NCBI GenBank assembly: GCA_028290165.1
Contig: JAQGKJ010000064.1
Span: 1-8,877 of the forward strand
Length of the DNA: 8,877 nucleotides
From: Bradyrhizobium sp.
GTDB lineage: Bacteria > Pseudomonadota > Alphaproteobacteria > Rhizobiales > Xanthobacteraceae
Direction of reading: 5' to 3'
Shown in pieces: positions 1-8,611 of the stretch (positions are counted from its first letter, which is position 1; each line of letters opens with the position of its first letter). A program made the position numbers and the translations under genes. A model generated the notes under the pieces. It made no database searches, had not been told where the DNA came from, and saw nothing but the letters and a program-made list of their open reading frames with translations.

Positions 1-43
1 GGGAAAGGTTCAATGGCAGCAGGTCTGAGCCGGCTGAAGCGGC

Positions 44-676
44 TTAACTTTTTCGTCTGTTGGAGGGTGGCGAGTCTTTCAGCCTCGCCATCACGCCGAG
101 CCGTATCACCTCTGCGAGCTGACGCAATCCCAGCCGCTCCATCATGCGCGCGCGATGCACCTCGACCGTCCGCACGCTAATCCCAAGATCGTAGGCGATC
201 AACTTGTTGGGTCGGCCGGCCAGCAGTCCGTCCAGAACGTCGCGTTCACGCGTGCTCAGAGTTGCGACCCGCCGGACTGCGTCGGCAAAATCGAGGTTGT
301 GATCGGCCTCCTTCAGAAATGCCGCCTCGATCGACCCAATCAAGGCATCATCGCTGTATGGCTTTTCGAGGAAATCGGTTGCACCGGCCTTCATTGCGCG
401 AACGGCCGTTTGAATATCTCCCTGACCGGTGACGACGATGACGGCGAGGTCGTTCCTCATCTTGAGAAGTTGGGTCTGGACATCAAGTCCACTCATGACA
501 GGCAAGCGGACATCCAGCAGAACGCAACCGGCCTTGAATGTTTTTGCCGCCGCCAGAAACGCGTGCGGATGATCGAAGGTGACCGGCTTGAAGTTCGCCG
601 AACTCAGCAAGCGTTCCAGCGAACGAAGGACGGCTGCGTCGTCGTCCAGCACATAGACGGTTCGTTCACCTACCAT
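44..676 (-). CDS. FixJ/NarL-family response regulator
   Basis: This is a 210-residue two-component response regulator, expected to be a cytoplasmic DNA-binding transcription factor switched by phosphorylation. The N-terminal receiver domain (about residues 5-120) has the acidic cluster D11-D13, phospho-acceptor D55 in LLDVRLP, T83 in VVTGQGD and K105 in FLEKPY. A LuxR-type helix-turn-helix follows (about 137-200), with LSTRERDVLDGLLAG and ISVRTVEVHRARMMERLG. This is the FixJ/NwsB/StyR layout. The start overlaps the end of the upstream histidine kinase by 11 bp and has a GGAGG ribosome-binding site at 682-686, five bases before the ATG, which suggests translational coupling. The partner is almost certainly that kinase. 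The family is clear. It is a FixJ paralogue rather than FixJ itself, because the kinase lacks a recognisable FixL haem domain. Its target genes are unknown; the nearby stress operons are candidates. Confidence 0.93.
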   Translation of the reverse strand: MVGERTVYVLDDDAAVLRSLERLLSSANFKPVTFDHPHAFLAAAKTFKAGCVLLDVRLPVMSGLDVQTQLLKMRNDLAVIVVTGQGDIQTAVRAMKAGATDFLEKPYSDDALIGSIEAAFLKEADHNLDFADAVRRVATLSTRERDVLDGLLAGRPNKLIAYDLGISVRTVEVHRARMMERLGLRQLAEVIRLGVMARLKDSPPSNRRKS

Positions 677-2384
677 CTAGTCCTCCACTTGACGGCAGGG
701 TAAAGCGAAAAATCGTGCCGCCTCGAGGATTCGGCCCCGCTCTCAATTGGCCGCCATGCGCTTCGATAATCGAGCGCGAGATCGACAGTCCCAGCCCCAT
801 GCCGTCGCGCTTGGTTGAAACGAATGGCTCAAACAATCGGCCGGCAATCTCGCCGGGAATTCCGGGACCCATATCGGCGATCGCAATCTCGATGTTACCG
901 TCGCCGAGAGTCCGACTCGCCAACGTGACTTCCCGCAAGCCTTGATTGGCCATCGCCTCAAACGCATTGCGAATGAGATTGACGATAACTTGCTGGATTT
1001 GAACGCGGTTAACCAAAACAGCCTGGGCGCGGTCGTCGAATTCAAATTTGAGACGTACCGTCAGTGGAGCGATGCTGCTCAATGCGAGGGCGCCTGCTTC
1101 CTCCATCATCGAAGGAAGTACTTCTACTCGTCTTTCCGTCTCGTCCCGGGTCAGGAATTGACGGAGGCTGCGAACGATTTCGCTCGCGCGCAGCGCCTGC
1201 TCGGCGGCTTCGTTGGTGACTTCCCGCGCGATTTGAAGATTGTCGCGATCGCCGCGGGTGAGCAGCCGCTTCGCGGCGTTGACCGAATTGACGACCGCCG
1301 TCAGCGGCTGGTTGAGTTCGTGCGCAAGGGCGGCGGCCATCTGGCCGGCGGCGGTCAGACGCGCCGCATGAAAAAGCTCGTTCTGCAATGTCTGGAAGCG
1401 CAGATCGGCTTGCGCGCGTTCGAGCTTCTCCGCGACCAGGTGTTTGTTGGCGTCGGCCAATTCGGATGTTCGTTCCTCGACGCGTCGTTCCAGGCTCTCG
1501 TTGAGGTGACGCAGTGCCGCTTCCGAATTCTTCTGCTCGCGGAGATCGCGGCTGACGGTAGCGACGTTCATCGGCTCGCCGGTGCGCGGATCGTCGATCC
1601 TGAAGCAATCGAGCAGGAAGGGTATCGGTATCCCGGATCCGAAATGCCTCAGTTCGAGTTCTCCTCTCCATCGGCCGGTACGGAGCACCAGAGGCCAGAT
1701 CTCGTGCCGTACGGCCTTTTGGTACTGCAGCGAAACGAAATCGAGCACGTGAAGTCGCAATGCGTCGTCGAGACCGTCAAGTCCCACCAATTCCAGACCT
1801 GCCGGATTGACATATTGAACCTGTCCGGTGAGCGAGGCGATGCCGACGAAATCGGTCGTTCGCTGCACCAGCACTGTGAACCTTCTTTTCTCGGCGTCTC
1901 CGAGCCAGTGCTGGAACGCAATCGCCGCCTGGTTGGCCCCGGTATTCAGCAGCAGCCGCTCGGTTCGGGTCGGAAAAGCGTCCCGGATGGAACCTGCGGC
2001 AAGTGTGGCGTCGCCCCCGAACCCGATCGGCGCGGTCACGACGTGCAGGTCGCGGCCGCCGGACGTGTCGGCAACGACAAATTCCTGTCCGCTGCCGAGG
2101 GTTGCTTTTTCATGCTGCAGCATCATCCGCACGCGTTTGAGGTCCGCAAGGTCCAGCTTTGGACTGCTCCGAGCGAGATCCGTGGCGAGCCCGTCGCCAT
2201 GGCCGGGGAGTGCGATGAAAACGAAATCGGCCTCAAGCATTGAGATCAGCGCGGCGACGATGCTGCTCCCGATCTGACGTATGTCATAATTTTGCCATGC
2301 AGCCGGAAGCGCCGAAAGGGCCACGAGATCGCGGATGCAACGTTGCAAGTCCTGAGAATTTGCAAACGGCTCAGTCCACGGCAT
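666..2384 (-). CDS. GAF-PAS sensor histidine kinase (FixL/NwsA-like)
   Basis: This 572-residue sensor kinase probably phosphorylates the response regulator whose gene overlaps its 3' end. The domain order, judged by eye, is a GAF-like region (about 10-160), a PAS domain (about 168-285, with GIASLTGQVQYVNPAGLELVG), a coiled-coil linker (about 285-340), a HisKA domain with the H-box AALAHELNQPLTAV (phospho-acceptor H355) and an HATPase. The HATPase shows the N-box NLIRNAFEAM (N473), the G1 box DMGPGIP (504-510), FEPFVSTK, and the G2 box GMGLGLSISR. No hydrophobic membrane spans are evident, so it is probably cytosolic. The kinase core resembles the FixL/DctB group. I did not recognise the haem-ligand histidine context of FixL in the PAS domain, so the signal is unknown. 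The ATG at 2384 has only a weak AAGG-type ribosome site. The 167-bp spacer in front holds repeats and palindromes described separately. Confidence 0.92.
   Translation of the reverse strand: MPWTEPFANSQDLQRCIRDLVALSALPAAWQNYDIRQIGSSIVAALISMLEADFVFIALPGHGDGLATDLARSSPKLDLADLKRVRMMLQHEKATLGSGQEFVVADTSGGRDLHVVTAPIGFGGDATLAAGSIRDAFPTRTERLLLNTGANQAAIAFQHWLGDAEKRRFTVLVQRTTDFVGIASLTGQVQYVNPAGLELVGLDGLDDALRLHVLDFVSLQYQKAVRHEIWPLVLRTGRWRGELELRHFGSGIPIPFLLDCFRIDDPRTGEPMNVATVSRDLREQKNSEAALRHLNESLERRVEERTSELADANKHLVAEKLERAQADLRFQTLQNELFHAARLTAAGQMAAALAHELNQPLTAVVNSVNAAKRLLTRGDRDNLQIAREVTNEAAEQALRASEIVRSLRQFLTRDETERRVEVLPSMMEEAGALALSSIAPLTVRLKFEFDDRAQAVLVNRVQIQQVIVNLIRNAFEAMANQGLREVTLASRTLGDGNIEIAIADMGPGIPGEIAGRLFEPFVSTKRDGMGLGLSISRSIIEAHGGQLRAGPNPRGGTIFRFTLPSSGGLDGR
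682..686 (-). promoter_or_regulatory. ribosome-binding site of the response regulator
   Basis: GGAGG on the minus strand, five bases before the ATG at 676 and inside the last codons of the histidine kinase gene. It fixes the response regulator start and indicates translational coupling of the pair. Confidence 0.8.
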
Positions 2385-2796: not shown

Positions 2797-3414
2797 CTAA
2801 GCGGCTCTTCCGACTACGGTGGGATTGACCTGTTCGTGCTGCCGCGAGCGCAGCTTGAAAGAGAAGATGACCAGCGCGATGCCAAAGACCAGTGCGTAGG
2901 CGCCCAGCCACCAGGTGAGCACAACGGCTCCGATCAACGGTGCGATAATAAGCAGTACGCCAAAGGCAAGCGACAACAGCCCGCCCAGGATCAGCCACCA
3001 CCGGCCATGGTCCATGTTCAAGCGGAAACCCGCAGCCGTTATCAGCCCGCCGGTCACGATCGCCCAGGCGGCGATCAGCCAGACGAACGCAACAACGGTA
3101 AGGCCCGGCCAGAGGAAGGCGGCAATGCCGACGGCGATATTGAGTAGTCCTTCGAATATCAGGACGCCCCAGCGGTCTTCCTTGCGGCGGATGGCGCGCA
3201 CAGCCGAGATAATGCCGACGACGCCGTCGACCAGCATGTAGGCGGAGAACAGGATCACCAGCGACAGTATCGTTGCGCCGGGAAAGATCAGCGCGATGCA
3301 TCCGAAGATGATGCCGAATATGCCTCGCAGCAGAAATAGCCACCAGTTTTGAATGAGCGTCTCTCCAACATTGTATCGAGCGTCAGAGGCGGAATTCATT
3401 GTGGTGTTAGCCAT
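2797..3414 (-). CDS. hdeD: HdeD family acid-resistance membrane protein (DUF308)
   Basis: This 205-residue integral membrane protein has six predicted hydrophobic helices, roughly at residues 25-44, 48-68, 82-102, 106-128, 138-159 and 163-187. They include NWWLFLLRGIFGIIFG, GVLIFEGLLNIAVGIAAFLWPG and WWLILGGLLSLAFGVLLIIAP. The repeated pattern of LRG or LEG followed by an FG or VG-IAAFLWPG segment is characteristic of HdeD/DUF308, a family linked to acid and general stress tolerance in enterobacteria, where the mechanism is not settled. Length is close to E. coli HdeD. The ATG is supported by GGGAG at 3421-3425, six bases upstream. A FixK/FNR-like box with a correctly spaced -10 element lies in the leader region, so microaerobic induction is likely. 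No enzymatic role is suggested. Using the symbol hdeD marks the family, not proven orthology. Confidence 0.88.
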   Translation of the reverse strand: MANTTMNSASDARYNVGETLIQNWWLFLLRGIFGIIFGCIALIFPGATILSLVILFSAYMLVDGVVGIISAVRAIRRKEDRWGVLIFEGLLNIAVGIAAFLWPGLTVVAFVWLIAAWAIVTGGLITAAGFRLNMDHGRWWLILGGLLSLAFGVLLIIAPLIGAVVLTWWLGAYALVFGIALVIFSFKLRSRQHEQVNPTVVGRAA

Positions 3415-3510: not shown

Positions 3511-3524
3511 TTGATGCCTGTCAA
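3511..3524 (-). promoter_or_regulatory. FixK/FNR-like box upstream of hdeD
   Basis: The sequence TTGATGCCTGTCAA fits the FNR/FixK consensus TTGAT-N4-RTCAA and the Bradyrhizobium FixK2 pattern TTGA-N6-TCAA, as a near-perfect palindrome. It is about 97-110 bp upstream of the hdeD ATG in a 208-bp spacer and has no gene other than hdeD to serve. Its sequence differs by one base from the box before hsp20. CRP/FNR-type regulators bind such sites as dimers and activate from about -41.5, which fits the downstream -10 hexamer. Confidence 0.7.
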
Positions 3525-3622: not shown

Positions 3623-4636
3623 CTACAGTTCGTGCGCCGCAAGGACGATTTTACCGACAACATGACCCTCGGCGAGGCGTTCGTGCGCCTTGTGGGCCTG
3701 GGCGAGGGGATAGCATTCGGCGATTGGAACCTTGAGCTTCGCACCTTGCACCGCCGCGTTGAGGCGCTCGAATTCGCGAACCCCGGAGATGCCGTCATAG
3801 CGGATCAGCTTCATGCCGCGCCGTTTCTTCGGGGCAGGCTCGACGCCGTTCGGGTGTGCGACCCGGCCGCCATGCCGAAGCGCGTTCAGGCATAGCTCCA
3901 GCGCGTCGCCGCCGGCGAGCGCAAGTACGGCGTCGACGCCGTCGGGCGCGAAGCGGCGCGCCTGATCGTCGATATCGGGGCGCTTGCCATCGACAACCAT
4001 ATGCGCACCCATCTCCCGAACTAGTTCCATGCCATCCCTGCCGGAGGCGGTGGCAAACACCCGCGCGCCGCGATATCTCGCAAATTGCACGGCGAGGGTC
4101 CCCACGCCGCCCGAGGCGCCATGAATGATGATGGTTTCGCCCTTTTTCAAACCGAGCGCGTCGTCGATGCCCTGCAGCGCCGTCAACCCCGTGATGGGGA
4201 TCGCGCCGGCATGCCGCAGATCAAGTCGTCTGGGGATCGGCGCGGCCTTGTCGGCGGGCACCACCACGTATTCCGCGTAAAAGCCGCCCTTTGGGTTCTG
4301 CCAGTTGTAGGAATAGACTTCATCGCCGACTTTCAGCCGCCGCACCCGCGAGCCGACGGCTGCGACGACGCCAGCGCCGTCGAAGCCGAGAACCATGGGG
4401 AAATGCGGTTGGCGGGGAGCAAAATATCCTTCCCGGACGTCGGCGTCCCATCGGCCAACACCCGCGGTATCGACCGCGATCAGCACTTCGCCTGCGTCCA
4501 CGGCCGGGATCGGCAGGGCGTGAGGGGTGATCACCTCGGGTCCGCCGAAGCGGTCGATGGCGGCGGCGAACATGGTGCGCGGCACATGCAGCGCGTGATG
4601 CCTGGCGGTGACGAAATTGCGGGTGCGATCGAGCAT
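3623..4636 (-). CDS. zinc-independent quinone oxidoreductase-like protein (MDR family)
   Basis: This 337-residue cytosolic oxidoreductase of the medium-chain dehydrogenase/reductase superfamily has the form of NADPH:quinone reductase (zeta-crystallin type). The N-terminal GroES-like catalytic domain includes FGGPEVI, GFDGAGVVAAVG (84-95) and KVGDEVYSY. The Rossmann domain carries the nucleotide-binding motif HGASGGVGT (172-180). The cysteine ligands of catalytic and structural zinc are absent, which separates it from zinc alcohol dehydrogenases. The substrate cannot be read from sequence: a quinone or reactive enone is the usual guess. The ATG at 4636 is preferred because CGAGG is centred near 4647 at 8-base spacing; the family-typical start MFAAAIDRFGG at 4573 has no ribosome site, so there is an unusual 21-residue N-terminal extension. 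It follows lon by 115 bp with no promoter I can recognise, so it is probably co-transcribed. Confidence 0.88.
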   Translation of the reverse strand: MLDRTRNFVTARHHALHVPRTMFAAAIDRFGGPEVITPHALPIPAVDAGEVLIAVDTAGVGRWDADVREGYFAPRQPHFPMVLGFDGAGVVAAVGSRVRRLKVGDEVYSYNWQNPKGGFYAEYVVVPADKAAPIPRRLDLRHAGAIPITGLTALQGIDDALGLKKGETIIIHGASGGVGTLAVQFARYRGARVFATASGRDGMELVREMGAHMVVDGKRPDIDDQARRFAPDGVDAVLALAGGDALELCLNALRHGGRVAHPNGVEPAPKKRRGMKLIRYDGISGVREFERLNAAVQGAKLKVPIAECYPLAQAHKAHERLAEGHVVGKIVLAAHEL

Positions 4637-4677: not shown

Positions 4678-4695
4678 AGCGCCGGCCGCGGCGCT
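4678..4695. other. GC-rich hairpin between lon and the quinone reductase gene
   Basis: A perfect 7-bp stem with a 4-base loop: AGCGCCG-GCCG-CGGCGCT. It lies about 56 bp past the lon stop. The minus-strand sequence after it is CTCGTTCAAGG, without a T-run, so it is a poor intrinsic terminator. It could stabilise the lon mRNA end or attenuate read-through to the next gene; this is an inference from position. Confidence 0.4.
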
Positions 4696-4751
4696 GACGT
4701 CGGTCAATTTCGCGGATCAATTGCATCACTCCGGTCCGGCCCCCACGCCGG

Positions 4752-7190
<2,439 letters not shown>

Positions 7191-7212: not shown

Positions 7213-7611
7213 CTATTTGACGAACTTCAGCGTAAGACATCCATTGGCAAGTTCCGATTGAGCGAGTTGCAGACGCCCCGCCGGAATGGCGATCCGGCGT
7301 TCGAACTTGCCGTAGGGGATTTCGAGACGATGAACGCGGCCACCGCGCGGGATCGCGCTCGGACGCAATCCCACCACTGAGACCCCGTCCTCTTCGACGA
7401 CGACCTTCACGGCGTCCCGGTCGACGCCGGGAAGCGCGACAGTGATCAGGACCTCGGAATCGGTCGCGGTAATGTCGACGGGCGGCTCCCAGCTCAACTC
7501 CTGGATAGGCGCGGCCACCGGCCGGATGAACTGGCGATGCAGCTGCTCGGCGCGGTCGATCATCTCGCAGGCCCTGGTCCACATCAGAGTTCTTGGATCG
7601 ACCGCGGCCAT
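7213..7611 (-). CDS. Hsp20 / alpha-crystallin family small heat-shock protein
   Basis: This 132-residue small heat-shock protein is expected to be an ATP-independent holdase that keeps unfolding proteins soluble. The alpha-crystallin domain covers about residues 43-130: WEPPVDITATDSEVLITVALPGVDRD, GLRPSA, and the late conserved stretch ELANGCLTLKF (the A-x-x-x-n-G-v-L motif). The protein ends two residues after that strand (LKFVK), so the C-terminal extension with the IxI oligomer-contact motif is missing. The start at 7611 is chosen because AGGGG (7621-7625) sits nine bases upstream; the ATG at 7620, three codons earlier, would touch that ribosome site. It heads the operon hsp20-lon, an apparent chaperone-protease pair, and is preceded by a strong FixK-like promoter arrangement. 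Confidence 0.92.
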   Translation of the reverse strand: MAAVDPRTLMWTRACEMIDRAEQLHRQFIRPVAAPIQELSWEPPVDITATDSEVLITVALPGVDRDAVKVVVEEDGVSVVGLRPSAIPRGGRVHRLEIPYGKFERRIAIPAGRLQLAQSELANGCLTLKFVK

Positions 7612-7714
7612 GACTTTCATCCCCTGTGCCGACGCGAAAACATCCCCATGCGGCAGGCGTTTGACGTCTGGTCCGATGCCGCTGGAGCTGATGTAGCGTT
7701 CGTTGTTCCAGGCA

Positions 7715-7720
7715 ATCCTA
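7715..7720 (-). promoter_or_regulatory. -10-like hexamer for hsp20-lon
   Basis: On the minus strand the hexamer is TAGGAT, four of six matches to TATAAT. It starts exactly 22 bp after the FixK-like box at 7743-7756, which gives the class II (-41.5) activator geometry and a predicted transcription start near 7708, about 97 bases before the hsp20 start. Confidence 0.55.
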
Positions 7721-7742
7721 TGATGGCGCAGGTCGCATCACC

Positions 7743-7756
7743 TTGATGGCTGTCAA
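7743..7756 (-). promoter_or_regulatory. FixK/FNR-like box upstream of hsp20-lon
   Basis: TTGATGGCTGTCAA fits the FixK/FNR consensus TTGAT-N4-RTCAA and differs by one base from the hdeD box. It covers the stop codon of the truncated usp ORF and is the only strong palindrome in the spacer before hsp20. A -10 hexamer follows at 22 bp. The sequence is directly visible; FixK or FNR as the binding protein is inferred from the consensus. Confidence 0.75.
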
Positions 7757-7992
7757 TCCCTCGTCCGAGAAGACGCCTCGATAGCGTCGCCGGCCTCCTT
7801 GGCGGCGTCCAGCCATTTGGTGACCTGATCGGCGCCGGCGCCATTGAACCCGTCCGGGATCACCGGCGGCAACAGGATGAAGAACAGCCCGGTGACATGA
7901 CTGTCGAAGGTGTCCGCGATCTGGTTGACGGCGGCCAGCCGCACGTCGTCTCCCGATGTGCCGTCCAGCCGAACCATGACGTTCTTGATCAT
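7753..7992 (-). pseudogene. truncated universal stress protein, N-terminal fragment
   Basis: This 79-residue ORF begins like a rhizobial universal stress protein: MIKNVMVRLDGTSGDDVRLAAVNQIADTF-type sequence, then SHVTGLFF. This covers the first beta strand, helix and second strand of a Usp domain. A normal Usp domain is about 140-150 residues and many relatives have two, but the frame stops after EAGDAIEASSRTRD. The 132 bp beyond the stop do not encode the missing half in any frame, so it is a deletion rather than a simple frameshift. In particular the ATP-binding G-x2-G-x9-G motif is absent. The ATG at 7992 has a good ribosome site (AAGGTGAG, 7999-8006), better than the GTG at 8016. It lies 42 bp after the upstream gene, probably in one transcript. 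A short functional protein cannot be excluded. Confidence 0.7.
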
Positions 7993-8034
7993 GGCGATCT
8001 CACCTTCAGGCAGCACGCAACAGCGGTCAACGGA

Positions 8035-8484
8035 TCACACCTTGACTTCGAGCTCGAACGATTTGATCAGCGCCATCGACAGCACCACCGGATCGACCGA
8101 AATGACGCGGAATGTGTGAAGCTTGCTGGCCTGCCCGCTGATCGAGACATACTCGCCCGGCAAGAAGGCGTGTTCGCCGAACCTGTAGCCGGCTTCCTTG
8201 TCATCATCCTCGTCGGGATTGTAGTCGAAAACCCAGCGTGCACGCTCGGCGCCGCCGGGCTTGTGGATGAGACGGCCGACCTCGTCGTCCTCTCCCTCCC
8301 AAAAGCGCCGAACCCGGCAGTAGTTACGATACCTCCTCCAGAGCACGGGATCGATATGCCCGTCGGGATCAAGCGGCGCAATGAAATCATATCCGTGACG
8401 CGAGGAGCCATCGGGAAACTCCCGGGAGCGGGCAAGATTCAGCAGGATGCGGTTGAGGTCAATCAGTTCAGTCAGCGCTTGCAT
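8035..8484 (-). CDS. conserved protein of unknown function
   Basis: This 149-residue, acidic, soluble protein has no transmembrane segment or signal peptide. I do not recognise a named domain, but it resembles hypothetical proteins I have seen beside stress genes in Bradyrhizobium relatives. Visible features are an N-terminal helix (TELIDLNRILLNLARSREF), a central RHGYDFIAPLDPDGHIDPVLW segment, the charged CRVRRFWEGEDDEVG, an RWVFDYNPDEDDDKEAGYRF acidic patch, and a C-terminal beta-rich part (GEYVSISG, LHTFRVISVDPV). The start is uncertain. The ATG at 8484 is chosen because the conserved-looking sequence begins there; 8538 (ATG) and 8592 (TTG) are also in frame but have no convincing ribosome site. 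It probably heads an operon with the truncated usp ORF. A FixK-like box lies 114-127 bp upstream. Confidence 0.75.
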   Translation of the reverse strand: MQALTELIDLNRILLNLARSREFPDGSSRHGYDFIAPLDPDGHIDPVLWRRYRNYCRVRRFWEGEDDEVGRLIHKPGGAERARWVFDYNPDEDDDKEAGYRFGEHAFLPGEYVSISGQASKLHTFRVISVDPVVLSMALIKSFELEVKV

Positions 8485-8597: not shown

Positions 8598-8611
8598 TTG
8601 ATCGCCATCAA
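8598..8611. promoter_or_regulatory. FixK/FNR box in divergent spacer
   Basis: TTGATCGCCATCAA is a perfect inverted repeat (TTGAT-N4-ATCAA), identical to the classical FNR/FixK consensus. It lies between the minus-strand unknown-usp unit and the plus-strand AI-2E-like gene. At class II spacing neither direction has a convincing -10 hexamer (TTGGCA on minus, TCCGCT on plus; GGCAAT at 24 bp on minus is slightly better), so which gene it serves is open. Confidence 0.7.

Follow-up and report, generated by a model that had tools for sequence, protein, structure and literature searches.

The closest described systems concern genes regulated by FixK- and FNR-type proteins. In B. diazoefficiens the targets of FixK2 include hspC2, groEL5, a universal stress protein (USP) gene and dnaJ; hspC2, which encodes an Hsp20, has a putative FixK2 box and is expressed at a 111.5-fold lower level in a fixK2 mutant (PMC9104804). 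The small heat-shock gene rlv_1399 of R. leguminosarum is dependent on FnrN, has an anaerobox and is induced under microaerobic conditions (PMC11784457). As FixK2- and FnrN-dependent Hsp20 genes have been published, oxygen-linked control of an Hsp20 gene is therefore not new. The predicted sites of FNR, DNR and FixK are virtually identical in Alphaproteobacteria, and a table of predicted members of the DNR/FixK/FNR regulons contains USPs and a zinc alcohol dehydrogenase (PMC2908626). USPs and an Hsp20 protein also appear in the microoxia tables of PMC6515984, in which the whole word 'lon' is absent. In Burkholderia cenocepacia the low-oxygen-activated (lxa) locus, whose ~50 genes include those for six universal stress proteins and one alpha-crystallin protein, is up-regulated at low oxygen (PMC6127331, PMC9104464).

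The DNA analysed here (the window, meaning the whole stretch of 8,877 nucleotides from a Bradyrhizobium sp.) and the related loci resemble FixLJ-FixK2 of B. diazoefficiens in having a FixJ-like regulator, a FixL-like kinase core and a candidate FixK-like activator, with TTGA-N6-TCAA boxes before stress genes that include an Hsp20. Unlike in that system, the kinase is below the FixL cut-off and matches in the catalytic part only, the FixK-like proteins form a separate clade, the N6 preference is another one, a different element precedes the fixK-like gene and the boxes are packed in one region. This box-dense region is labelled the 'island' below, a label that refers to box density and carries no claim of horizontal transfer. 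With rlv_1399 the locus shares a small heat-shock gene with an anaerobox; the activator there is FnrN, however, and the passages of PMC11784457 drawn on contain no Lon operon. The lxa locus is, by its published description, a comparable block of low-oxygen genes, but it belongs to another class and its control is discussed via BCAM0049 (FixK/Anr-like), which lies outside BCAM0275-0323. The hFixL-FxkR-FixKf cascade of Rhizobiaceae (PMC4999443) gives one lineage a second way, parallel to the first, of reaching a FixK-like protein, as is proposed here; there FxkR uses GTTACA-N4-GTTACA and FixKf is near FnrN, whereas the present loci have a FixJ-like regulator and a protein that groups beside FixK. 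In the open-licence PMC literature, covered mostly as titles and the starts of abstracts, no account was found in Bradyrhizobium of the island, the FixK-like clade, a separate cascade or a Lon operon under it.

On the minus strand of the window the box TTGACAGCCATCAA (7756-7743) is followed after exactly 22 bp by TAGGAT (7720-7715), upstream of hsp20-lon; on the plus strand the same site, 7743-7756, reads TTGATGGCTGTCAA, with the pattern TTGA-N6-TCAA. The first-pass annotation had given the box in plus and TAGGAT in minus orientation, which is harmless because TTGA/TCAA is palindromic, and the arrangement it described before hsp20 is present and is kept in relatives. In class II promoters the box is centred at -41.5, and arithmetic from that centre predicts a transcription start at 7708, in agreement with the start near 7708 proposed earlier. 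With a 14-bp palindrome at about -41.5 and 22 bp before a -10 hexamer, the site is, as judged from the DNA, a class II CRP/FNR-type promoter of the hsp20-lon operon, and the 22-bp spacing of the two genes suggests that they are probably co-transcribed. Exact TTGA-N6-TCAA occurs four times in the window, against a mean of 0.099 in dinucleotide shuffles, and 0 of 2000 shuffles reached four. The features are collected in Table 1.

Table 1 Features of the window; the main genes are on the minus strand, and the gene at the right end is divergent
Feature	Coordinates	Strand	Remarks
Possible 3' tail of a convergent gene	1..47	+	14 codons, ERFNGSRSEPAEAA stop; frame 3
FixJ-like response regulator	44..676	-	
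Sensor histidine kinase	666..2384	-	N-terminal weak, low-confidence GAF-like similarity; PAS; FixL-like kinase core
HdeD/DUF308 membrane protein	2797..3414	-	
Exact box upstream of HdeD-family gene	3511..3524	-	CTAAAT at gap 22
Zinc-type alcohol dehydrogenase	3623..4636	-	
One-mismatch box upstream of alcohol dehydrogenase	4694-4707		Without -10-like hexamer at 22 bp
lon, LonA-type protease	4752..7190	-	22 bp after hsp20, same strand
Exact box inside lon	5212		Without -10-like hexamer at 22 bp
hsp20, small heat-shock protein, PF00011	7213..7620	-	Alternative start ATG at 7611, seen in the sequence
-10 hexamer TAGGAT	7715..7720	-	22 bp past box; TANGNT in 11/11 promoters; gap-22 peak
CRP/FNR-type box TTGACAGCCATCAA	7743..7756	-	Predicted -48 to -35 of hsp20-lon promoter; exact in 10/10 orthologous places
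Universal stress protein (USP) gene remnant	7753..8016	-	~630 bp shorter than in L090
Gene X	8035..8484	-	Adjoins USP gene in several relatives
Exact box between gene X and divergent AI-2E-type gene	8598..8611	.	Same place in L090, L091 and L096

The possible tail at 1..47 agrees in position and strand with the fixK-like gene of relatives; 43 bases of the window lie beyond the regulator stop. The boxes at 5212 and 4694 were taken as chance occurrences for want of a -10-like hexamer at 22 bp. An exact box lies within 200 bp upstream of HdeD at four of the six Bradyrhizobium loci that have HdeD and at three of the four remote loci. Gene X gave no match in Pfam or NCBIfam. In the USP remnant the join precedes the box by 7-19 bp, and the shortened frame reaches its stop inside the box, which is itself kept.

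An ortholog search of 242 genomes of G203's genus found Hsp20 at E 1e-30 or better in 12 genomes, at 13 places. At ten of these (nine genomes) the Hsp20 identity is 64-80%; the named protein matches at 79-80% identity are from Bradyrhizobium, evidently the genus of the nine carrier genomes. All ten orthologous places have hsp20 and then lon, the exact box upstream of hsp20, the 22-bp gap and T-A-N-G-N-T. When the window is counted, the hexamer is TAGGNT in 10 of 11 promoters and TACGCT in L097. Across these 11 promoters, from orthologs that are few and mutually related, mean pairwise identity reaches 87% for the box and 85% for the hexamer, falls to 56% for the gap and is only 31% over the 40 bp upstream. 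The GGT directly past the box is invariant in all 11.

At the three further places in the genus (45-48% identity) an exact box was found 231 bp upstream of the matched start in L100 and none nearby in L101 and L102, and none of 38 remoter hsp20 loci (L013-L021, L027-L055) has one within ~330 bp upstream. The remote loci rule out the box as a general feature of hsp20-lon and, together with L101 and L102, make it therefore a trait of this lineage and not of hsp20-lon as such. Other genome samples gave only relatives below ~52% identity, or none at the threshold: 134 of 299 genomes matched at E 0.001 (best identity 48%), 48 of 198 at 1e-20, 1 of 5 at 1e-22, 8 of 43 at 1e-28 and 0 of 347 at 1e-33. 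Fourteen plasmid records held an Hsp20 relative, every one below 60% identity. For HdeD, 12 of 385 genomes matched at 1e-25.

The usual heat-shock route through a ROSE thermometer had been discounted in the first-pass annotation, and this was borne out. No Rfam family, ROSE included, reached the gathering score in the window, the fold of the predicted hsp20 leader is no more stable than that of shuffled sequences (z -0.67), and among 20 hsp20 loci the sole match at gathering score was a tRNA in L005. An RNA thermometer was thus rejected on the basis of the Rfam scans and the ordinary leader fold.

The density of boxes was followed in the carriers, and most of the island counts come from one genome, G1358. 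There, 200 kb at 490-690 kb hold 51 exact TTGA-N6-TCAA sites compared with five in 320 kb of the same genome (16 distant blocks). The boxes are concentrated at 506-690 kb, ~183 kb (L158-L167), and 40 shuffles of 490-710 kb gave a mean of 2.8 exact boxes and a maximum of 8. The neighbourhoods of other CRP/FNR genes had been tried as neutral background; they were biased, with 22 exact boxes in 80 kb, and were replaced by the 16 distant blocks. The fetched stretches of the nine carriers contain about 18-27 exact boxes per 100 kb (17.6 in G1353). G+C averages 0.605 across ten island blocks, compared with 0.632 for the controls, and no tRNA was found in the 11 blocks scanned of the G1358 stretch.

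A more specific pattern, TTGAYGNNCRTCAA, is clustered in the same way: 20 of its 22 sites in the G1358 genome are within 506,044-689,419, and 10 of 12 in G1394 are on two contigs (six and four), the first of which carries hsp20-lon. In G1353 four of six lie within 38 kb and in G1242 three of seven within 23 kb; hsp20-lon is part of each of these stretches. Two genomes without an hsp20 ortholog have three sites each, and the reversed pattern occurs 0-1 times per genome. None of the four exact boxes of the window matches TTGAYGNNCRTCAA fully.

Genes were called by a simple ORF rule, so that borders are approximate; 48 were listed beside boxes and the products of 20 were scanned against Pfam. Among them were a USP, a Clp-family AAA+ ATPase, two Oxidored_FMN enzymes, an aldehyde dehydrogenase, a 6-phosphogluconate-dehydrogenase-type NAD protein, two PRC-barrel and two [2Fe-2S] proteins, an erythromycin-esterase-family protein, MMPL, HlyD, MFS and AI-2E transport proteins, a baeRF protein, a rhomboid protein and a CRP/FNR regulator. 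Two of the 20 had no Pfam match.

The spacing seen at hsp20-lon recurs across the region. In three genomes TANNNT stands at gap 22 in 11 of 66 box-gene pairs, some of which are orthologs across genomes and not independent, and in no more than three at each of the other gaps between 0 and 49. Taken by itself, G1358 has 8 of 40 pairs at gap 22, a count that 0 of 5000 base shuffles equalled. Hexamers with at least four of six matches to TATAAT number 15 at gap 22 and no more than five at other gaps. The remaining 55 of the 66 pairs are without TANNNT at 22 bp; many boxes therefore have a weaker -10 or another geometry, or serve the opposite gene.

A CRP/FNR protein profile was run on the fetched stretches of the nine carriers. 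Eight of them contain intact FixK-like proteins, one or two each, and none was found in the 34 kb fetched of G1345. A broken island fixK-like copy lies near 540.4 kb of G1358 (L160). The closest solved structure to the island FixK-like protein is FixK2 (4I2O), at 98 bits compared with 349 bits for L139, the FixK2 ortholog of G1358. Against the NCBI FixK cut-off of 300 bits the island protein scores 126, and the FixK2 ortholog is likewise under it at 230 bits. FnrN, AadR, FixK and FixKf are named groups in PMC4999443. In a tree of 32 proteins, in which the program flags long branches, the 11 intact island proteins form one clade (100/99) and, with four remote proteins (L104, L106, L108 and L109), a clade with support 100/99; this sits beside ten proteins including L139 (join 98/92).

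The recognition helix is SVETVCR in all 11 island proteins as against TLETVSR in FixK2, and the cysteine in place of serine could make DNA binding subject to a redox switch as well. No shared N-terminal cysteine cluster was seen by eye in the CRP/FNR proteins of the island stretches; the one cysteine-rich stretch belongs to the L173 frame, within its over-long start, and the other proteins lack it.

The boxes also differ. The island box tends to TTGACGGCCGTCAA, whereas the classical one is TTGAYCNNGRTCAA. Unconditioned intergenic boxes at 490-710 kb of G1358 follow TTGA-C(70%)-G(63%)-N2-C-G-TCAA, with G at position 6 in 63% of half-sites; among the 26 published FixK2 boxes considered, position 6 is C in 21 and G in four. 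Sites of the classical form fall inside the island in 1 of 11 cases in G1358, 0 of 24 (60 kb fetched) in G1242 and 0 of 8 (two box-rich contigs) in G1394, the three genomes that this comparison covers. The box at 7743-7756 conforms to the FixK2 regulon consensus TTGA/C-N6-T/GCAA, in which N6 is variable (PMC9104804). In these three genomes, however, island-type and TTGAYC-type boxes lie almost wholly in separate regions, a preference that is not a strict FixK2 rule.

The response regulator of the window has FixJ as its best match, at 211 bits, below the NCBI cut-off of 255. The kinase scores 281 bits against FixL, for which the cut-off is 850, over residues 317-565 only, and FixL is the best match of its core, the PDB matches to FixL chimaeras spanning residues 321-566; the similarity to FixL is thus confined to the catalytic part, residues 317-566. 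The haem-PAS motif was not seen by eye in the kinase. An AlphaFold model of its sensor was poor (mean pLDDT 59, seven sequences), and Foldseek gave phytochromes as the best matches and GAF domains next, all at low query TM-score; no ligand is therefore claimed. As the kinase matches FixL only in the catalytic part, low oxygen is a candidate signal, and the link to symbiotic life drawn in the first-pass annotation is conjectural.

In relatives the fixK-like and regulator genes lie tail to tail, separated by 9 bp in L096 and by 35 bp in G1242. TACGTA or TAAGTA is found upstream of 10 of the 11 island fixK-like genes, 93-158 bp before starts that were taken by script, that of G1265 being unsure; upstream of the 11th stands TAGGTA. 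Two of the four remote fixK-like genes have TACGTA or TAAGTA upstream, and the FixK2-group genes L139 and L155 have no TANGTA within 300 bp. One of the two FixJ SELEX motifs is GTAMGTAG (PMC4999443). The longer element TACGTA-N3-7-TACG occurs at four places in 220 kb of G1358, two of them before intact fixK-like genes, one before a second kinase gene and one ~300 bp before HdeD, and in 0 of 20 control blocks.

It seems likely, with a probability of roughly 0.65, that a dedicated FixK-like protein, and not FixK2 itself, activates hsp20-lon within a parallel stress cascade of the FixLJ-FixK type. This reading builds on what the sequence shows: a conserved arrangement of box, spacing and -10, a particular set of genes, a clade of regulators in relatives and a TACGTA element. 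From these we infer the signal, the direction of the cascade and the pairing of protein with site. The kinase would sense stress, probably low oxygen or else a change in redox or energy state linked to it, and phosphorylate the FixJ-like regulator, which would turn on the fixK-like gene via the TACGTA-type operator. Going by the relatives, the window's own genome would have this gene beside the FixL/FixJ-like pair, just past the window's left end. A dimer of the FixK-like protein would then bind TTGAC/T-N4-A/GTCAA boxes centred at -41.5 and recruit RNA polymerase to many promoters within a single stress island. Counting against a dedicated regulator are the absence from the window of a fixK-like gene beyond the possible tail, the incomplete match of its boxes to TTGAYGNNCRTCAA, the 55 of 66 pairs without TANNNT, the lack of the regulator in the G1345 stretch, the dense boxes near other CRP/FNR genes as well (22 exact ones in 80 kb), the two of six loci at which HdeD has no box and the two of four remote fixK-like genes without TACGTA.

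The site had been described in the first-pass annotation as a FixK-type class II promoter bound by FixK2 or FNR. The class II CRP/FNR-type promoter before hsp20-lon stands; these two activators are doubtful because the box-dense DNA of the carriers has its own FixK-like clade and a different box preference. Direct activation by FixK2, through FixLJ and oxygen and as part of the ordinary FixK2 regulon, is unlikely, although the boxes of that regulon (TTGA/C-N6-T/GCAA) include TTGACCTGCGTCAA and TTGATCTGCATCAA and hspC2, with its putative box, falls 111.5-fold in the fixK2 mutant (PMC9104804). G1358 does have a clear FixK2 ortholog, which could bind island boxes given the variable N6 that FixK2 tolerates and the four of 26 published boxes with G at position 6. 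What such an assignment leaves unaccounted for, besides the carriers' own clade, is that TTGAYCNNGRTCAA is nearly absent from the box-dense DNA (1/11, 0/24 and 0/8) while the other type is concentrated there.

The near identity of FNR, DNR and FixK sites in Alphaproteobacteria (PMC2908626) and the FnrN dependence of rlv_1399, with its anaerobox (PMC11784457), would also suit an iron-sulphur protein of the FNR type (FnrN/AadR) that senses oxygen directly. By eye, however, the island CRP/FNR proteins have no N-terminal cysteine cluster in common, the L173 stretch being unique to an over-long start, and use of these boxes by such a protein is very improbable. That exact boxes are missing from all 38 remote hsp20 loci, and present at only one (L100) of the three other places in the genus, is what would be expected if the box were a chance match or co-inherited DNA and hsp20-lon were transcribed from a heat-shock or housekeeping promoter; but an identity of 85-87% in box and -10 against 31% in the 40 bp upstream, an excess of exact sites over shuffles and the failure to find a thermometer RNA make this scarcely credible.

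Beyond control of hsp20-lon by a dedicated FixK-like protein, a wider proposal is put tentatively, at somewhat short of even odds: Bradyrhizobium and some other Alphaproteobacteria may share a self-contained stress island with its own kinase, FixJ-like and FixK-like proteins and operators at both steps, insulated from FixLJ-FixK2 and forming a portable, dormancy-type regulon. If so, these bacteria would run two circuits of the FixLJ-FixK type in parallel, each with its own DNA code, and the second would include protein quality control through Hsp20, Lon and the Clp-family ATPase. The pair would offer a direct test of how insulation arises between duplicated regulatory cascades, and in rhizobia the island would be the counterpart of persistence programmes such as DosR and lxa.

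Some components of this set (HdeD, a regulator or kinase-regulator pair, a fixK-like gene and boxes) recur at the remote alphaproteobacterial loci L104, L106, L108 and L109, hinting that the module moves or is old. At 571017-574123 of G1358 (L162), as read from the frames, a second kinase and two receiver-type response-regulator frames stand behind another TACGTA-N5-TACG; FixJ-like regulators may therefore control each other.
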